Positions 21,440-32,982 of a stretch of DNA of 64,000 nucleotides are shown here, one piece after another (positions within the stretch are counted from its first letter, which is position 1; each line of letters begins with the position of its first letter). The stretch is from an uncultured Gemmiger sp. (GTDB lineage: Bacteria; Bacillota; Clostridia; Oscillospirales; Ruminococcaceae), in the NCBI GenBank assembly GCA_944388145.1, contig CALXHQ010000007.1, positions 1 to 64,000 on the forward strand, written 5' to 3'. The position numbers were made by a program, and so were the translations under genes. The notes under the pieces were generated by a model that did no database searches, had not been told where the DNA came from, and worked only from the letters and a program-made list of their open reading frames with translations.

Positions 21440-21483
21440 AAAAAAAGCCTGCACCGCATCAGCGGATGCGGCACAGGCTTTTC
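21440..21483 (-). terminator. Terminator of the helicase-ATPase-TerB operon
   Basis: Minus strand: GCCTGTGCCGCAT / ATGCGGTGCAGGC followed by seven T. It lies just after the helicase stop. Confidence 0.85.
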
Positions 21484-21509: not shown

Positions 21510-23765
21510 TCATCCGGTCGGTTCGGCGGGGGCAAGGCCTTCGGCCCAGTCCCGCACGCGCTGTTTCATGCCCTCCACGTCCAGCACGCCCAGGGCAAAG
21601 CCTTTGCGCACCAGCTCGGCGGGCAGGTATTCGTCGTACTTTTCAAACGCCGGCACCTCCTTGGGGTAGACCAGCTCCAGCGGGTCAAACTCTTTGGCGG
21701 CCTCCTCGGCGGTGATGCGGTAAAACTCCTGCTCGTCCACCTGCATGGTGAACTGCATGTAGTAGGGCCGGGCCGGGCTGAGGCCCTTCAGGCCCAGCCG
21801 GGCGGCGCAGCGCAGCTTCAAAAAGCGTTCCAGCGCTAAAAAGGCATAGCTGCCCAGCCAGGGGAACAACGCCCACATCCTGCCGCCCAGGTGGACCAGC
21901 GGCCGCCCCGCCATGCCCGCCTTGCGGAAGGTGGCGCGGGCGTCCATCAGGCGGGCGGCAGCATGGCGCATCAGGTAGGGGTAGGCGGTCTCCTCGCACA
22001 GCACCCGGTGCATCCGCTCCAGGATGCGGGTGTGGATATCCCCCGCCACATCGCCGAAGTAGGCCGGAACATTGCCCTTGACCAGCGTGCACCAGACCTC
22101 CCGGCGTTTGTGGTCCACTTCCTCCACCACCCAGACCCGCCCGGCGATGGCGATCTTGTCCCCCACCGGCGGCGGCTTGACGATGGTGCCCAGCTCCTCG
22201 GGGCCGGCGTGCACCGAATACTCGATGTTTTCCTGAAAGACCGCGTAGAACTTGTAATTGTTGACGATGCGCTCGCCGGCCAGGCCCAGGATCAGGCCGC
22301 CGGCCTCGGTACGGCTGATGTGGTCCTGTTCCAGCAGATGGCGCAGCAGCAGGCGGTAATCGTCCTGGCTGACCCGGCGGAAACAGGCAAGGGTCAGCAC
22401 CCGGCTGGCCAACTCACCGGGGGTCATCTCCCCGCAGGCGGCCAGGGTGCTCATCGTCTGGTGGTACAAAAGGCTGTACGGCAGACGGCCGGTGCGGGGC
22501 GGCTCCACAAAGCGCTCCTCCAGATAGAGCTGCACCAACGCGATGCCCTGAACCAGATACCAGGGGATCAGCTCGGGCAGCAGGGCGCGGGCTTCGGGGT
22601 GGTCCTCCCGCATGACAAACCACATCTCGGCGGGGTTGCCCCGGCGGCCGGTGCGGCCCATCCGCTGCAAAAAGCCGGACACGGTGAAGGGCGCGTTGAT
22701 CTGGAAGGCCCGCTCCAGCCTGCCGATGTCGATGCCCAGTTCCAGCGTGGCGGTGGCGCAGACCGACACCAGTGCATCGTCATCCTTCATCTCCTGCTCG
22801 GCGCTTTCCCGGTAGGAGGCGGACAGGTTGCCGTGGTGGATCAGAAAGCGGTCCGGCTCATGGTTTGCCTCGCAGTACTGGCGCAGGCTCTGGCAGACGG
22901 CCTCGCACTCCTCCCGGGAGTTGGTGAAGATCAGGCACTTTTTGCCCCGGGTGTGCTCAAAGATATAGCCGATGCCCGGGTCGGCCGCCTTGGGAGCGGT
23001 GTCGGTGGGCGGCTCGGGGGCAAGGGTTTCGGGCAGGTCGCGGCGGTCCTCGCCGGCCTGGGGCGCAGCGCTGAAAAAGTGCTCCATCGACAGGCGCCAG
23101 ACCTCCCGCCCGCCGTCAAATTGGGGGATGACGGTGCCGCGGCCGCTGCCTTCCGCCAGGAACCTGCCCGCGGCCTGCGGGTCGCCGATGGTGGCGGACA
23201 GGCCGATGCGCCGGGGCTGGCACCCCGCCGTGCGGCACAGCCGCTGGATCAGGCAGAAGGTCTGCAATCCCCGGTCCCCCCGCAGCAGCGAGTGGAGCTC
23301 GTCAATGACAACAAAGCGCAGGTCACCGAAGAGGGACGGCAGTTCCATGTGCTTGTTGATCAGCAGCGACTCCAGCGATTCCGGCGTGATCTGCAAAATG
23401 CCCGCCGGTTTGCACAGCAGTTTGCGTTTTTGGCTTTGCGGGGCATCGCCGTGCCAGCGGGTGACCGGGATGTCTGCCTGGGCGCAAAGCTCGGTCAGGC
23501 GGCCGAACTGGTCGTTGATCAGCGCCTTGAGCGGCGCGATGTACAACGCCCCCACGCTGTGGGGCGGGTCCTCATCCAGCAGAGTCAGAATGGGGAAAAA
23601 GGCAGCCTCGGTCTTGCCGGAGGCCGTGGAGGCGGTCAGCAGCACGTTACTGTCGGTGCCAAAGATGGCGTTGCCGGCGGCGTTCTGCACGCCGCGCAGC
23701 ATCTTCCAGCCGGACCGGTAGATATAGTCCCGGATGAAAGGGGCGTATCGCGCAAAGACGTTCAT
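21510..23765 (-). CDS. Lhr/BrxHI-like superfamily 2 helicase
   Basis: 751 residues. Motifs: Walker A LLTASTASGKTEAAF (about 42-56), DELH box VVIDELHSLL, motif III IGLSATIGD, CLIFTNSREECEA, and motif VI FLQRMGRTGRRG. After the two RecA-like domains comes a long C-terminal part (HISRTEAGGLILGLAGERIV, VVEEVDHKRREVWCTLVKGN) as in Lhr-type helicases. ATP-driven DNA or RNA:DNA unwinding is expected. Its start overlaps the ATPase stop by 4 bp and it is the last gene of a three-gene operon. BREX-type loci pair an Lhr-like helicase (BrxHI) with a BrxD ATPase, as here. Confidence 0.87.
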   Translation of the reverse strand: MNVFARYAPFIRDYIYRSGWKMLRGVQNAAGNAIFGTDSNVLLTASTASGKTEAAFFPILTLLDEDPPHSVGALYIAPLKALINDQFGRLTELCAQADIPVTRWHGDAPQSQKRKLLCKPAGILQITPESLESLLINKHMELPSLFGDLRFVVIDELHSLLRGDRGLQTFCLIQRLCRTAGCQPRRIGLSATIGDPQAAGRFLAEGSGRGTVIPQFDGGREVWRLSMEHFFSAAPQAGEDRRDLPETLAPEPPTDTAPKAADPGIGYIFEHTRGKKCLIFTNSREECEAVCQSLRQYCEANHEPDRFLIHHGNLSASYRESAEQEMKDDDALVSVCATATLELGIDIGRLERAFQINAPFTVSGFLQRMGRTGRRGNPAEMWFVMREDHPEARALLPELIPWYLVQGIALVQLYLEERFVEPPRTGRLPYSLLYHQTMSTLAACGEMTPGELASRVLTLACFRRVSQDDYRLLLRHLLEQDHISRTEAGGLILGLAGERIVNNYKFYAVFQENIEYSVHAGPEELGTIVKPPPVGDKIAIAGRVWVVEEVDHKRREVWCTLVKGNVPAYFGDVAGDIHTRILERMHRVLCEETAYPYLMRHAAARLMDARATFRKAGMAGRPLVHLGGRMWALFPWLGSYAFLALERFLKLRCAARLGLKGLSPARPYYMQFTMQVDEQEFYRITAEEAAKEFDPLELVYPKEVPAFEKYDEYLPAELVRKGFALGVLDVEGMKQRVRDWAEGLAPAEPTG

Positions 23766-25093
23766 ATCGTAAACTCCGCATAGGGGGCGTCGGTCTGGTC
23801 AGAAACGGCTTCCGACGCGGCAAAGGAAAACTCCTCCGACTGGAGCAGCTGGTCCATGGTGGCGGCCGGGTCCTGGTACAGCAGGTCCAGCAGCTCAATG
23901 AAATCGCGGATCACCTCGCGGGGGGTGATGTTCTGGTCGGCGCCAATGCGCCCATATTCCAGCTGGAGAAAGCGGGCCAGGTCGGTGGGCTGCAGGCGGC
24001 GGGGGTAGCCGTACAGGCCGGCATGCAGATCGGCCAGCTTTTCACACAGGACCAGCATCTCCTCCGGCGTCAGGGGGTCCAGGCGGATCACCGGCGCCAG
24101 CAGGTCCCGGGCGCCGGGGCGGGAAAACTTGCCCTCGGTCAGGCGGGAACGCAGCGCCTCGTAGCTGTACACGCCGCGACGCTTGTCCTCCAGCGCCTGG
24201 GGCGTGGCGCCCATCAGGATGCCCAGATACCGCGCCTTGCCCTGGAGGGTATCGTTGTACATGGTCAAAAGCTTTTCATAATTGTACTGGCGGGTGATGG
24301 CGTTGGGGATCTTGTACAGGTTGACCAGCTCGTCGATCATGATCATCATGCCGGTGTAGCCCGCCAGGCGGAAAAAGACCGCAAAAAGCTTGAGGTAGTC
24401 GTACCAGTCATCGTCGGTGATGATGACGTTGACGCCCAGTTCCTCCCGGGCCTCCCGCTTGAGGGTGTACTCGCCCCGGAACCAGCGCACCACCCGGGCC
24501 TTGGTTTCGTCGTCCCCGTCCAGATAGGCGTGGTAGTACAAGGACAGCAGGCGGGCAAACTCAAAGCCGTGGACCAGCTCGCTGACCGCCGCGGTGACCG
24601 CATAGATCTTCCGGTCCACCGCTTGGGTCAGGGCCGGGTCCCCGGGGGCCAGGCCGGTTTCCTGCACAGCCTGGGTCTGTACCGTGCTGATCCACCGGTC
24701 CAGCACCAGCGTCAGGGCGCCGCCCTCGGGCTTTGTCTTGGTGGACAGGTTGCGGATCAGCTCCCGGTAGGTGGCCAGGCCCTGGCCCCGGGTGCCCTGG
24801 AGCCGGCGCTCAGGCGAAAGGTCAGCGTCGGCCACAATGAAGCCCCGGTCCATCACATAGTTGCGGATGGTCTGGAGCAGAAAGCTTTTGCCGGAACCGT
24901 ACCGCCCCACGATGAACCGGAAGGACGCCCCGCCGTCGGCGATGATGTCCACATCCCGCAGCAGCGCCTCAATCTCATTTTTGCGGCCCACCGTAATGTA
25001 AGGCAGGCCGACGCGGGGCACCACGCCCCCCTTGAGCGAGTTGAGGATGGCCTGGGCAATGCGCCGGGGCACGTTTTTGTTCACGTCCGTCAT
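23762..25093 (-). CDS. BrxD/DUF2791-like P-loop ATPase
   Basis: 443 residues. Walker A is FIVGRYGSGKSFLLQ (about residues 60-74) and Walker B MIMIDELVNLYK (about 246-257). RNLSTK, then long helical regions, and SYEALRSRLTEGKFSRPGAR complete the pattern of the DUF2791/BrxD ATP-binding family, which contributes to BREX-type loci and Ter-linked DNA-processing loci. The start overlaps the TerB gene stop by 4 bp. The family has AAA-like architecture and probably loads or powers the neighbouring helicase; this is inferred from gene order, not shown. Confidence 0.82.
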   Translation of the reverse strand: MTDVNKNVPRRIAQAILNSLKGGVVPRVGLPYITVGRKNEIEALLRDVDIIADGGASFRFIVGRYGSGKSFLLQTIRNYVMDRGFIVADADLSPERRLQGTRGQGLATYRELIRNLSTKTKPEGGALTLVLDRWISTVQTQAVQETGLAPGDPALTQAVDRKIYAVTAAVSELVHGFEFARLLSLYYHAYLDGDDETKARVVRWFRGEYTLKREAREELGVNVIITDDDWYDYLKLFAVFFRLAGYTGMMIMIDELVNLYKIPNAITRQYNYEKLLTMYNDTLQGKARYLGILMGATPQALEDKRRGVYSYEALRSRLTEGKFSRPGARDLLAPVIRLDPLTPEEMLVLCEKLADLHAGLYGYPRRLQPTDLARFLQLEYGRIGADQNITPREVIRDFIELLDLLYQDPAATMDQLLQSEEFSFAASEAVSDQTDAPYAEFTI

Positions 25094-26994
25094 GGATTGT
25101 TCCCTCCCATAGTGCGGCTGCCAGCCAGCAATTGTTGTACCTCCTGCCAGTAGTCCTCCACCAGAAGGATCGCCCCGCCGTCGCAGTCCAGCACATTGTC
25201 CCCCACTGCGTCAAATAGCGCCGCGTTGATACCGTCTGCCACCACCGAGGGCATCCGCCGGGCCGCCTGCAGGATGGGCTGCACCGGCTGCCCCTGCAAA
25301 AGCGCCTGCAGCACCTGCTGTTCCACCCCGTCCAGCGCCGCTTCGGGGGCAGGTTGCAGCGCCGCGGGCGCCGGGGCGCCGGGCAGGGGCGCAGGCGGCA
25401 GGGGTGCCTTGGGCTGTGCGGGGGCCGGCTCCGGCTCGCTGTCCGCTTCCTCGCCGGCAAGCAGGCTGCTGCAGGTACGGGCGGCGTCCTGCCGGATGCG
25501 GTCCAGCCCGGTCAGGTCGATGGTGATGCGGGGACGGGCAGCCTCCTGCTCAGCCTGCCGCTCCGCGGCAAGGGCAGCCTCCACCAGGGGAGCAGCCCAG
25601 GCATCGGCGGCCGATTCCCGCAGGTAGTGCCCTGTCTTCAGCGCACGGCGCAGCTGCTGGTCGGACCGGCGCAGCAGGCCGCGGAGCATCTTCCAGTCGA
25701 AGTAAAGGTTCTCGTAACGCTGTTCCCGCCAGTACCCCCTGCGGCATCTGAGGGTGCGGCAGGCATCCAGCGCGTAGTCGGTATCGGGGTGGGGGGACTG
25801 CTGCCAGTAGACCGCGCTTTCCAGCGGCCGCCAGGGAAAGACCTGCCGCTCGCCAAAGCAGGCGGTGAACAGGTCATCGCCCCGGCTGCGGGCCTGGGCG
25901 GTGCCGCAGCGCCACACCCGGGCAAACAGCCGCATCCCCTTTTCCCCCGCCCGCCTGACCACCGGGGACTGGGCCAACTTGCGGCCGGAGAGGGCGTCCA
26001 AAGCGTCAAAAACCTGGCCGTCGGTGCGGGCGTCGCAGCTGCGCAGCACATCCAGGGCGGCATCCCGCTCCAGCAGGGCAGGGTCAGCGTACTGGCGTGC
26101 TTCCTCGGGTGGGAGATCGTGGATAATGGCAAATTCCAGCATCCACTGGTGCAGATGCTTGCGGATGCGCTCCTCCCCGTAGCCGGCGTCCAGAAAGCCG
26201 GTCTCAAAGTCCCGCATACGGGCCAGTGCCTCCCGGGGGGAACCAGCGCCGATGCCGTTGAGCAGCTCGTAGAGATACAGGCAGGCCAGCGACGGGGCGA
26301 TGGGTCGGTATTCCCCCTGGCGAACCCGGGTGCGCCAGGTGAAGTAGCCCCGCAGCTGCCGGACGTTCAGGTCCTGGTAGGTGGGGAAATAGCGGGTGAC
26401 GGCATCGTTGCAGGGATAGTCGTCGGTGTAATCCTCCATAAAGCGGGCCTGCAGGTAAAAGCTGCGGCACTTTTGGGCGAAGGACCCAGCGGAATACTGG
26501 TACAGCTGCCGCATCTGGCGGATCTTTTCGGGCACGTCCTCCTGCTGGGGCAGCCAGGTAGTGTCCGTCACGCGACGCGGCGGCGGGGGCAGCACCACGC
26601 TTACCCCGCTGCCGGTGTGCACCGGGGGCTGCTGCAGCACGACAGTGTAGCTGCCCTGCTGGCCGTCATAGACCGCTTTGTCGAACAGGCGGCAGACGGT
26701 GACCGGGTCGGTGGCGCTGTCAAAGCAGACGCCCACCCATTTGGGGCCTTTCATGCGGAAAGGCAGCGACAGGTAGGGCGGCGGATTGCCGGTCAGGCAG
26801 TCGCGGCCGCACTTGATATCACAGCGCTGGATCTCGGTGCCGGTGTCAAAGTCCCACTGGCGCATCAGCAGGGCCACCCACTTGCCGGTGGCCGGGTCTG
26901 TCAACACCGAAAACCCCGGGAACCCGGCCCACTTGTGCTGTTCCCGCATTTTGAATTTTTCTGCCGCATGTGCGACCAATTCCGCCAGATCCAT
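25090..26994 (-). CDS. TerB-N/TerB-C domain protein
   Basis: 634 residues. The N-terminal 110 residues (HKWAGFPGFSVLTDPATGKW, LLMRQWDFDTGTEIQRCDIK) are a DUF-like beta-rich domain. The middle (SFYLQARFMEDYTDDYPCND, LRGYFTWRTRVRQGEYRPIA, YLYELLNGIG) has the TerB_N signature. A Pro/Ala linker near 525-560 precedes a C-terminal TerB_C domain (VVADGINAALFDAVGDNVLD, ILLVEDYWQEVQQLL). TerB-type helical domains occur in stress and predicted phage-defence loci. It is the first gene of the operon, followed by the ATPase and helicase. No nuclease motif is visible. Confidence 0.82.
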   Translation of the reverse strand: MDLAELVAHAAEKFKMREQHKWAGFPGFSVLTDPATGKWVALLMRQWDFDTGTEIQRCDIKCGRDCLTGNPPPYLSLPFRMKGPKWVGVCFDSATDPVTVCRLFDKAVYDGQQGSYTVVLQQPPVHTGSGVSVVLPPPPRRVTDTTWLPQQEDVPEKIRQMRQLYQYSAGSFAQKCRSFYLQARFMEDYTDDYPCNDAVTRYFPTYQDLNVRQLRGYFTWRTRVRQGEYRPIAPSLACLYLYELLNGIGAGSPREALARMRDFETGFLDAGYGEERIRKHLHQWMLEFAIIHDLPPEEARQYADPALLERDAALDVLRSCDARTDGQVFDALDALSGRKLAQSPVVRRAGEKGMRLFARVWRCGTAQARSRGDDLFTACFGERQVFPWRPLESAVYWQQSPHPDTDYALDACRTLRCRRGYWREQRYENLYFDWKMLRGLLRRSDQQLRRALKTGHYLRESAADAWAAPLVEAALAAERQAEQEAARPRITIDLTGLDRIRQDAARTCSSLLAGEEADSEPEPAPAQPKAPLPPAPLPGAPAPAALQPAPEAALDGVEQQVLQALLQGQPVQPILQAARRMPSVVADGINAALFDAVGDNVLDCDGGAILLVEDYWQEVQQLLAGSRTMGGNNP

Positions 26995-27543
26995 CGCGCA
27001 GTTTCCTTCTTTCTGCCTTTGCGGCGGTTGTAAGATGTCCCGGGTATGTCTGTTCCTTCAGGCCGGAACCAAGCAGACCGGAAAATTTGCCAAAAAGCAG
27101 CGCATGCAAAGCGCGGGGCTGCCGCAGCCCTGGATGGGCGGCAAGCCACCGTGGCGCGGCAGACGCCGCTTTTGTACAGCATTTTTCACAGAATATAGAG
27201 CAGGACCGCGCCGGGATCATACCGGAGATTGTTCGGACACACTTTAGTGTATCACATCACAGCAACAGGCACAATGTGCCGCGGGCGGAAAGTCCCGTTC
27301 ATGGGACTTTTCGCGACTCCCGCCCGGGCCGGCTGCATCTGCGAAGTCCTGCTGTTATTGTACTGTATCCGGCGCTGCCGCACAAGCGGGGCCGGGCAGC
27401 AAAACGCCCCGCAGAGGGCGGCACCGCGGGGGCAGGGGCACCGGGTTCTGCCGTTCGTCCGAATCCACACATAGGCAGGGCAGGAAACGGCAGCCTTGAT
27501 GTTTTTGTATTGTAAGTATCAAAAAGCAACTGTTAAGCAACTG
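26995..27543. other. Non-coding region upstream of the TerB operon
   Basis: No gene recognised. It contains the operon's leftward promoter and about 240 bases of leader, plus an AAGTCCC-N6-GGGACTT hairpin at 27290-27309. The leader shows no riboswitch I can name. Confidence 0.5.
27246..27274 (-). promoter_or_regulatory. Promoter of the TerB-ATPase-helicase operon
   Basis: Minus strand TTGTGC, 17 bp, TACACT. The -10 overlaps an ACACT-TT-AGTGT palindrome (27239-27250). Confidence 0.5.
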
Positions 27544-31007: not shown

Positions 31008-31079
31008 AAAGGGCAGCGGGAGCTGCACAGACACATCAGTGCCTTTGATGGGTTGTGCCGGCGTTTCGTCTGCCCTTTT
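31008..31079 (+). terminator. Large hairpin, terminator-like
   Basis: AAAGGGCAG pairs with CTGCCCTTTT across about 53 bases, with weaker inner pairing. It follows the small membrane protein gene and may reduce read-through into the VWA gene. Confidence 0.45.
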
Positions 31080-31194
31080 GTTGTATGTGCGCCCCGGCGG
31101 CAAGGGCCCCTGCGGTTCCCGCCCGGCAGCCCCGGCATTGTCTGCCGCTGCCAAAGGCGGGGTATGGCCCCGCCGCCCACCCGGAGGAGGACCC

Positions 31195-32982
31195 ATGAAC
31201 AGACAATTGCAACACACCACGCGACCGGTGTGGCTGCGGCGGCTGGCCCTGTTGTGGCTGCTGATCTTCTGCCTTGCCATGGCCTGGCAGGCAGGCGGAG
31301 CGCCGCAAAAGCAGCCGCCGGCCGGCCGCACGGTCCACGGTCAGCCGGACCCCGCCACCCTGCCCAGCGGGACCGTGGAGCTGAACGGCCATTACTTTTA
31401 CCTGAACCGCTGCGGCCCCATCACCTGGCAGGACGCCCAGCAGCGCTGCCAGGAAGCGGGCGGGCATCTGGCCACCGTCACCTCACAGCAAGAGGCAGAG
31501 TTGCTGGCCGGCCAGCTGAACGGCGATGAGCGGATGTGGCTGGGCGGTTACCGCAGCGACAGCGGGAGCTGGAACTGGGTCAGCGGCGAATCCTGGCAGT
31601 TTGCCCAGTGGGCGCCCGGCCAGCCGCTGGAGCCGGACCATGCCGCCACCACGGCGCGGTACCTTGCCATTCAGCGGGACGGCTGGCTGGTACAGACCGA
31701 TGAGGATGGCCCCGCCCAGAGCGGTTATATCTGCGAGTGGGAATATGGCAGCTCGGTGATGCCGGCCACCCCCGCCCCGGCGCTGCCGCCGGGCAGTACG
31801 CCGGCCCCCACCCCGGCGCCGGTGATCCCCTCCAGCGCATCGGACCGGGATGTGGTGCTGGTGCTGGATGTATCCGGCTCGATGTACGGCACGCCTTTGG
31901 AGGAGACCAAAAAAGCCTCGATCAACTTTATCTCCACCGTCCTGCAGGAGGGCGCCCGCATCAGCGTGGTGGCTTTTGCCAACGACGCCCAGGTGGTTTC
32001 GGACTTTTCTACCGACGAGACCGTGCTGGTCAACGCGGTGAACGGGCTGGACACCTACGGTGGCACCAATACCGAGGCCGGCCTGCGCAGCGCACAGCTT
32101 TTGCTTTCCGGCAGTGCCGCCAAAAAGAAGATCATTGTGCTGATGAGTGACGGTGAGCCAAACAACGGCCGTGTGGGCGATGACCTGATCGCCTACGCTG
32201 ACAGCATCAAGCAGCAGGACATCCTGATTTATACCCTGGGCTTTTTCGAGAGCCTGAGCTACAAGGCCCCGGCCCAGGCGCTGATGAACGCACTGGCCAG
32301 CGATGGCTGCCACTATGAGGTATCCGACGCTGACAGTCTGGTCTTTTTCTTTGAGGACATTGCCGACCAGATCAACGGCCAGCGCTACATTTACATTCGC
32401 ATTGCCTGCCCGGTGGATGTGACCATCCGCTATGGCGGCGAGACCCTCACCTCCGATGCAGACCGGCAGAACCTGCGCACCGACTTCGGCACCATCACCT
32501 TCGAGGAATCGGAGGAGGCGGAGACAAGCGGCGACGCCTCGCCCGGCGGCAGCGAGGAGGATACCACCGATGACCTGATCAAGGTGGTGCGCCTGAAAGA
32601 GGGCGTGGATTACGACGTTCAGATTGTGGGCACCGGCCGCGGAAGCATGGATTACACCATCGGCTTTATGGACGGCGAGGGCGAGTACAACGATTTTCGC
32701 CGGTTCGAGCGGGTGCGCATCACCCGCAATACCGTCATCGACACGGTGGCCACCGTGTCGGATGAGAGTGTGCTGAACATCGACGAGGACGGCGACGGCC
32801 GGTATGATCTGCGGCTGCGCGCCGAAGCAAACGGGTATGGGGAGGAGGTCAGGACCCCGCTTTGGGTGTACATTGCCATGGGCGGCGGCGCAGCCCTGTT
32901 GCTGCTGGTCCTTGTCCTGATCCTTGTATTGGCAATCCGCAAAAGGAACAAGAAAAAACACATGAGAAGAAAGGTTTGGTGA
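31195..32982 (+). CDS. Membrane protein with C-type lectin and von Willebrand A domains
   Basis: 595 residues from ATG 31195 (GGAGGAGG); the frame is open further upstream without a ribosome site. A signal anchor (LALLWLLIFCLAMAWQAG) is followed by a C-type lectin domain (about 60-185: GHYFYLNRCGPITWQDAQQR, WLGGYRSDSGSWNW, YICEW). A Pro linker precedes the VWA domain (about 218-400) with intact MIDAS: DVSGSMYG, GGTNTEAGL, MSDGEPN. A beta-rich region and a C-terminal transmembrane helix with a basic tail (KRNKKKHMRRK) follow. Predicted surface binding protein; ligand unknown. The downstream zinc-ribbon gene begins 8 bp later. Confidence 0.85.
   Translation: MNRQLQHTTRPVWLRRLALLWLLIFCLAMAWQAGGAPQKQPPAGRTVHGQPDPATLPSGTVELNGHYFYLNRCGPITWQDAQQRCQEAGGHLATVTSQQEAELLAGQLNGDERMWLGGYRSDSGSWNWVSGESWQFAQWAPGQPLEPDHAATTARYLAIQRDGWLVQTDEDGPAQSGYICEWEYGSSVMPATPAPALPPGSTPAPTPAPVIPSSASDRDVVLVLDVSGSMYGTPLEETKKASINFISTVLQEGARISVVAFANDAQVVSDFSTDETVLVNAVNGLDTYGGTNTEAGLRSAQLLLSGSAAKKKIIVLMSDGEPNNGRVGDDLIAYADSIKQQDILIYTLGFFESLSYKAPAQALMNALASDGCHYEVSDADSLVFFFEDIADQINGQRYIYIRIACPVDVTIRYGGETLTSDADRQNLRTDFGTITFEESEEAETSGDASPGGSEEDTTDDLIKVVRLKEGVDYDVQIVGTGRGSMDYTIGFMDGEGEYNDFRRFERVRITRNTVIDTVATVSDESVLNIDEDGDGRYDLRLRAEANGYGEEVRTPLWVYIAMGGGAALLLLVLVLILVLAIRKRNKKKHMRRKVW

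Follow-up and report, generated by a model that had tools for sequence, protein, structure and literature searches.

The stretch analyzed here, referred to below as the window, comprises 64,000 nucleotides of contig CALXHQ010000007.1 from an uncultured Gemmiger sp. Its minus strand carries three consecutive genes, sngA, sngB, and sngC, which encode a TerB-type protein, a BrxD-related AAA+ ATPase, and an Lhr/BrxHI-like superfamily 2 (SF2) helicase, respectively (Table 1). The three genes are intact, each frame starting with ATG and running without internal stops, and, as a first-pass annotation of the sequence had claimed, they are coupled by two 4-base ATGA overlaps. The same annotation placed a promoter upstream and a terminator downstream. 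The terminator was confirmed: just past sngC lies a stem of 18 unbroken pairs (two of them G-U) followed by a run of seven T's, and none of 200 shuffled sequences was as stable. The promoter remains a weak candidate, the nearest same-strand sigma-70-like match being found well upstream of sngA. The GC content at third codon positions of the trio (0.83 to 0.88) falls within the range of the 10 other window frames (0.69 to 0.88), so GC content shows no sign of a recent foreign origin.

Comparison with the PADLOC models identified the operon. The three proteins gave near-full-length matches to the models of the Shango defense system (SngC, 924 bits; SngB, 632 bits; SngA, 234 bits), with the window SngA covering positions 13 to 527 of the 528 in its model; in the same scan, BrxHI (399 bits with SngC) and BrxD (162 bits with SngB) came behind the Sng models. 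Shango is recognized by homologues of SngA, SngB, and SngC lying adjacent in a single operon and by a TerB_N plus TerB_C architecture in SngA, and the window has both. As judged from sequence, the trio is a Shango (SngABC) defense operon, a gut-clade variant with a clade-specific SngA. According to the accessible part of PMC10250203, Shango of Pseudomonas aeruginosa PA14 consists of a TerB-like protein, an ATPase, and a helicase; introduced into PAO1, it reduced plating 10- to 100-fold for many phages, not all, and protected liquid cultures, and Shango of Escherichia coli, as cited there, caused modest inhibition of two phages. The window trio has the same three families in the same gene order, which also occurs on an E. 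coli plasmid, and its SngB is 41 to 42% identical to enterobacterial plasmid forms among the matches listed. The first-pass annotation had proposed a profile search of each protein, which the PADLOC scan supplies, and had described a self-contained, BREX-independent module of the defense type, which is what we find. It was mistaken in taking the system to be unknown, since Shango is already in print, as the accessible parts of PMC10250203 and PMC10952713 attest, and is represented in PADLOC. Tellurite resistance was considered and rejected: SngA gave no match to the TerB core domain (PF05099), and the scan of window frames turned up no further ter gene.

Table 1. Features of the sngABC operon (positions in the window)
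Feature	Positions	Strand	Details
sngA	25090..26994	minus	Open reading frame of 634 amino acids, ATG start; first gene
sngB	23762..25093	minus	Open reading frame of 443 amino acids, ATG start
sngC	21510..23765	minus	Open reading frame of 751 amino acids, ATG start
sngA/sngB overlap, ATGA	25090..25093	minus	4 bases
sngB/sngC overlap, ATGA	23762..23765	minus	4 bases
Intrinsic terminator of the operon	21443..21482	minus	-29.9 kcal/mol, z -6.57
Candidate sigma-70 promoter, weak	27509..27536	minus	10/12 match, ~515 bases upstream of sngA
YjbR/DUF419-like domain, SngA residues 1-112	26659..26994	minus	Foldseek, AlphaFold model; placement inferred
TerB_N, SngA residues 150-341	25972..26547	minus	Pfam PF13208, 83.8 bits, cut-off 25
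TerB_C, SngA residues 476-619	25138..25569	minus	Pfam PF15615, 58.8 bits, cut-off 26.3
SngB Walker A, GRYGSGKS	24884..24907	minus	G66, G68, K69, and S70 invariant in 12 homologues
SngB Walker B, MMIMIDE	24329..24349	minus	D254 and E255 invariant in 12 homologues
SngC SF2 motif I, ASTASGKT, residues 45-52	23610..23633	minus	GKT invariant in 12 homologues
SngC SF2 motif II, DELH	23292..23303	minus	Motif search and homologue alignment
SngC SF2 motif VI, QRMGRTGR	22644..22667	minus	Motif search

The catalytic motifs that had been annotated in SngB and SngC are in place. SngB, which matched the Pfam BrxC_BrxD family with 562 bits, has intact Walker A and Walker B motifs. SngC matched the Pfam DEAD and Helicase_C families; SF2 motifs II, III, V, and VI were found by pattern search, and motif I, which the search pattern missed, was read directly from the translation. 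Compared with Lhr, SngC has the SF2 core and a weak winged-helix match and falls below the cut-offs of both WH_Lhr (18.4 against 27) and PRK09751 (79 against 1496), the latter of which we take to be the Lhr model. SngC, BrxHI, DruE, and DpdJ have been described as a potentially distinct clade of defense helicases (PMC12278908, accessible part).

The first-pass annotation went on to read the trio as a stand-alone derivative of the bacteriophage exclusion (BREX) systems in which TerB takes the place of the BREX core. SngB and SngC are indeed homologous to BrxD and BrxHI, which are tightly paired in type 2 BREX systems (PMC12839542). In the accessible part of that paper, the C-terminal domain of BrxHI is said to resemble that of Lhr, and no mention of TerB or SngB was found. 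We nevertheless consider this derivation exceedingly improbable. SngB reached 164.2 bits against the NCBIfam BrxD equivalog NF033438, below its cut-off of 350; the Sng models lead by hundreds of bits, so that SngB and SngC fit Shango far better than type 2 BREX; and the trio has already been defined as Shango. The operon has no PglX, PglZ, BrxC, or other BREX gene, and a PglZ/BrxC core was absent from the trio and from the scanned frames of the window, which agrees with the annotation's statement that BREX components are absent. That statement fails for the genome as a whole (G000), where a PglZ search, which matched 2 of 14 named control genomes, found a match on contig C16. A BREX locus stands there in the order BrxA, BrxB, BrxC, PglX, PglZ, BrxL (L243:6518-18787, L244:31-1893), with PglX in two frames and a PDC-S31-type gene between them. 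Shango and a separate BREX locus thus coexist in the same genome on different contigs, which likewise counts against the derivation, and the mutual exclusion of the two systems that had been suggested as a check does not hold here.

SngA differs between the window operon and the E. coli and Roseovarius plasmid forms. Both annotated signatures, TerB_N and TerB_C, exceeded the Pfam cut-offs; PF05099, which accompanies them in SngA of the E. coli and Roseovarius plasmids (L238 and L241), had no Pfam match. The same was true of eight other SngA proteins, from Paenibacillus (L239), L049, L066, L045, L031, L034, and L091 (two proteins), and in these, as in the window SngA, Pfam recognized TerB_N and TerB_C only. 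Because the Paenibacillus trio also lacks a TerB match, we do not count PF05099 as defining Shango. When the window SngA clade was compared with these two plasmid proteins (L238 and L241) by hhalign, 59 columns were aligned, in TerB_C only (probability 23, E value 0.00089), a result that leaves some room for a cryptic TerB core. The window SngA is 32 to 56% identical to 37 SngA proteins of the nearest named loci. The AlphaFold model of the window SngA (mean predicted local distance difference test score, 86) has a separate N-terminal alpha/beta domain. Foldseek returned a single match to the model with an E value of 0.001 or lower, the YjbR-like structure 3h9x (E value, 1.6e-5; template modeling score by target, 0.80), followed by 2fki (E. 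coli yjbR; E value, 0.038) and 2a1v (DUF419; E value, 0.084), both with a probability of 1.00. The N-terminal fold of the model, together with a subthreshold Pfam YjbR match at residues 13 to 106 of an L091 homologue (20.2 against 30.1 bits), suggests that the window SngA, in contrast to the plasmid proteins, starts with a YjbR-like domain spanning residues 1 to 112. As a separate observation, L091 carries tandem SngA-type genes (1,092 and 648 amino acids) ahead of sngB-sngC (L091:2751-7979).

A scan of named genomes returned at least 583 relatives. Gene order was counted in the best 80 of these, with SngC matches below 200 bits dropped; their taxonomic labels read Bacillota, Bacteroidales, Spirochaetales, Chloroflexi, planctomycete, and others, and are to be taken with caution because most of the relatives are metagenome bins. 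In the survey of gene order that the first-pass annotation had called for, the order A-B-C was found in 74 of the 80 (in two cases with two A-type frames), which argues that the arrangement is not due to chance, and among the 76 relatives with both B and C, 53 have a 4-base overlap between the two. Some of these operons contain inserted genes of the defense type, namely, an EcoRI-type endonuclease and methylase (L052), an MmeI-type enzyme and a DUF3990 gene (L104), and a PDDEXK nuclease (L109); frames in L120 resemble, by eye only, the DUF3990 set of L104.

Within the family, Shango is patchy. SngB was found in 1 of 35 genomes of the window's genus and in 15 of the 148 genomes of a family-wide draw, in which SngA was found in 16 and SngC in 14. 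All 14 genomes with SngC also have A and B, and in a further genome (G133), A and B share a contig whose end falls within B. Among 14 named genomes used as controls, the SngB model matched one, SngA none, and SngC none at 1e-100. The three genes keep company closely, not perfectly. It had been stated that separate conservation of the genes would refute an independent system; the family draw largely disagrees with such separation (14 of 148 genomes with all three, 1 with A and B, 1 with A alone), and a genus in which SngA is unlinked, described below, gives a similar picture, 34 of 43 genomes having all three genes, 8 lacking one, and 1 lacking two.

The relatives also include mobile forms. On the E. 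coli plasmid, the A-B-C trio is flanked by insertion sequences, and the same order occurs on Paenibacillus and Roseovarius plasmids. SngB relatives were found in 691 of 72,556 plasmid records, 542 of the 691 being typed conjugative, a count that includes at least one weak match (H25) that is itself a BREX-type ATPase. Carriage as phage cargo was rejected: no relative was found in 50,697 phage records, and none was confirmed in viral contigs, at the sensitivity used. Two plasmids hold further genes worth recording. In Roseovarius (L241:9461-13236), Shango is followed directly by genes for a PD-(D/E)XK nuclease and a UvrD helicase, which we presume to be AddAB-like. A Desulfomonile plasmid (L240:5159-10585) has consecutive genes for a protein that Pfam does not match, for two BREX-type ATPases, and for a DEAD helicase, possibly a related system.

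Three genomes of the family draw have Sng genes lying apart (G019, G094, and G122). In G019 and G122, one gene is elsewhere. Among relatives in their genera, where SngC matches were accepted from 100 bits, A adjoins B in all 10 loci examined for G019 and in 3 of the 4 for G122 (the fourth, L246, ends at B); for L252 and L254, two of the 10, no C was found in the 1.5 kb that follow B. Outside the genus of G094, two genera gave SngB in 5 of 5 and in 21 of 40 genomes, and in most of the loci examined there it is linked to A. The genus of G094, a sister genus of the window's, is the one among those examined in which the trio is both fixed and dispersed. Its 43 genomes (loci L031 to L033 and L129 to L237) contain SngA in 43, SngC in 39, and SngB in 37 cases; for the 27 better genomes, the counts are 27, 26, and 25. 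SngC was sought there at 1e-80, a threshold at which three archaea among the 14 controls also matched; the weakest match counted was 1.7e-139. SngA lies on a different contig from SngB in 37 of 37 genomes and from SngC in 39 of 39, and B and C sit within 300 bases of each other in 13 of 34; in 12 they share a contig at a greater distance, and in 9 they are on different contigs.

The surroundings of the unlinked SngA are largely constant. In 11 neighborhoods with long flanks, in which SngC was accepted from 150 bits, one gene family adjoins SngA every time, and the member scanned is an Abi_2 protein (PF07751, 171 bits); other neighbors, which we take to be der, plsY, and gpsA, recur in 10, 10, and 9 of the 11. 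A relative of the Abi_2 gene was found in 28 of 30 short-flank SngA loci (7 genomes shared with the 11), and the two loci without one are each truncated by a contig end on the side concerned. An Abi_2-type gene therefore stands beside SngA in 32 of 34 genomes examined, out of 43. With the same query, no relative was found in the window stretch, in the best 80 named loci, or in 18 further loci of the family. Among genomes with loci for both proteins, the protein trees agree, with Mantel r values of 0.89 for A-B (20 genomes), 0.95 for A-C (24 genomes), and 0.84 for B-C (23 genomes), and none of 2,000 permutations reached so high a value for any pair. Agreement between trees of genes that are not linked points to common vertical descent. 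A SngB tree was built from a chosen sample, with two BREX-type ATPases as its root. The unlinked clade lies within the operon forms there (support for one node next to it, 0.54), and the Paenibacillus and proteobacterial forms fall outside; from this small tree, the unlinked state looks derived.

These findings bear on a further explanation of the trio, that it is a housekeeping or stress-related DNA maintenance module which loads a helicase on damaged or stalled DNA. A near-universal trio with SngA unlinked and concordant protein trees, as in the sister genus, speaks for such a role. We judge it improbable as an account of the system, given the single occurrence among 35 genomes of the window's genus, the relatives on plasmids and in several phyla, the published inhibition of phages by Shango (PMC10250203, accessible part), and the apparently derived position of the unlinked clade. 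The chances appear even that Shango was domesticated in the sister genus, from a mobile defense cassette to a core chromosomal function in DNA surveillance, with the three proteins still acting together. The dispersed, near-universal trio found no mention in the literature searched, which left out most subscription papers, and defense finders that require adjacent genes would miss it.

The reading that we favor, to which we assign a probability of about 0.88, is that the window holds a complete Shango operon of a Bacillota/gut clade, one that was probably taken up as a cassette and today stands between ordinary metabolic genes. Several observations weigh against it. SngA is divergent, with a PADLOC score of 234 bits and, in comparison with 12 further SngA proteins from the family, 19 to 29% identity; without a detectable TerB core, its activity may differ, and no phage assay of this clade of Shango was found in the literature searched. 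Six of the best 80 relatives lack one gene in the stretch covered. Four have A-B only: L126, whose end holds the beginning of C; L110 and L127, which end just past or within B; and L102, in which approximately 970 bases follow B without C. Two have B-C only, with 888 bases upstream of B holding another gene in L095 and no A in approximately 8 kb upstream in L128. In the family draw, the genome with A alone (G080) has it near a contig end, and in the sister genus, B is absent from 6 and C from 4 of the 43 genomes, three of these gaps falling in genomes more than 90% complete (G187, G197, and G208); near-universal genes are in themselves unusual for a defense cassette. The lack of relatives in the phage records and of confirmed relatives in viral contigs, at the sensitivity used, belongs here as well, as does the lack of PADLOC matches in the 10 other window frames. 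No clean empty site was found in the genome compared (G162), in which GH53 and its downstream genes are retained; its matches to the other flank of the window sit on other contigs. Upstream of GH53, in the place of Shango, it has a cluster that we take to be rnf genes. Finally, the sole repeat that brackets the operon is a 15-base pair with 13 positions alike (21490-21504/27105-27119), which we take as chance, and neither flank of the operon contains repeats. Elsewhere in the window, positions 31039 to 32982 encode a protein with C-type lectin and von Willebrand A domains.

For a Shango operon of this kind, a mechanism can be proposed by analogy, tentatively and at somewhat less than even odds, with each biochemical step inferred. 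The accessible part of PMC12839542 places BrxD among the ORC/Cdc6 AAA+ ATPases and describes it as a possible loader of BrxHI, and since SngB is related to BrxD, it is probably an ATPase of the same type. SngB would then load or gate SngC on aberrant DNA, such as that of a phage; SngC would translocate along and unwind the DNA; and SngA would be the sensor or adaptor that sets when SngB and SngC act, its N-terminal YjbR-like module perhaps standing in for the TerB core of proteobacterial SngA. Pfam recognized no nuclease domain in SngA, SngB, or SngC, which makes direct cutting less likely, and a block of phage DNA replication or the recruitment of a host nuclease would be the likelier outcome.

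Taken by itself, the window locus is an ordinary further case of Shango. Across the SngA proteins compared, the PF05099 TerB core seems dispensable and TerB_N and TerB_C are retained, which narrows the location of the conserved function of SngA. The specialist interest lies in the apparent domestication in the sister genus, where the dispersed trio offers a natural experiment on the mutual need of the three Shango proteins for one another and on how a defense system may become a core function.

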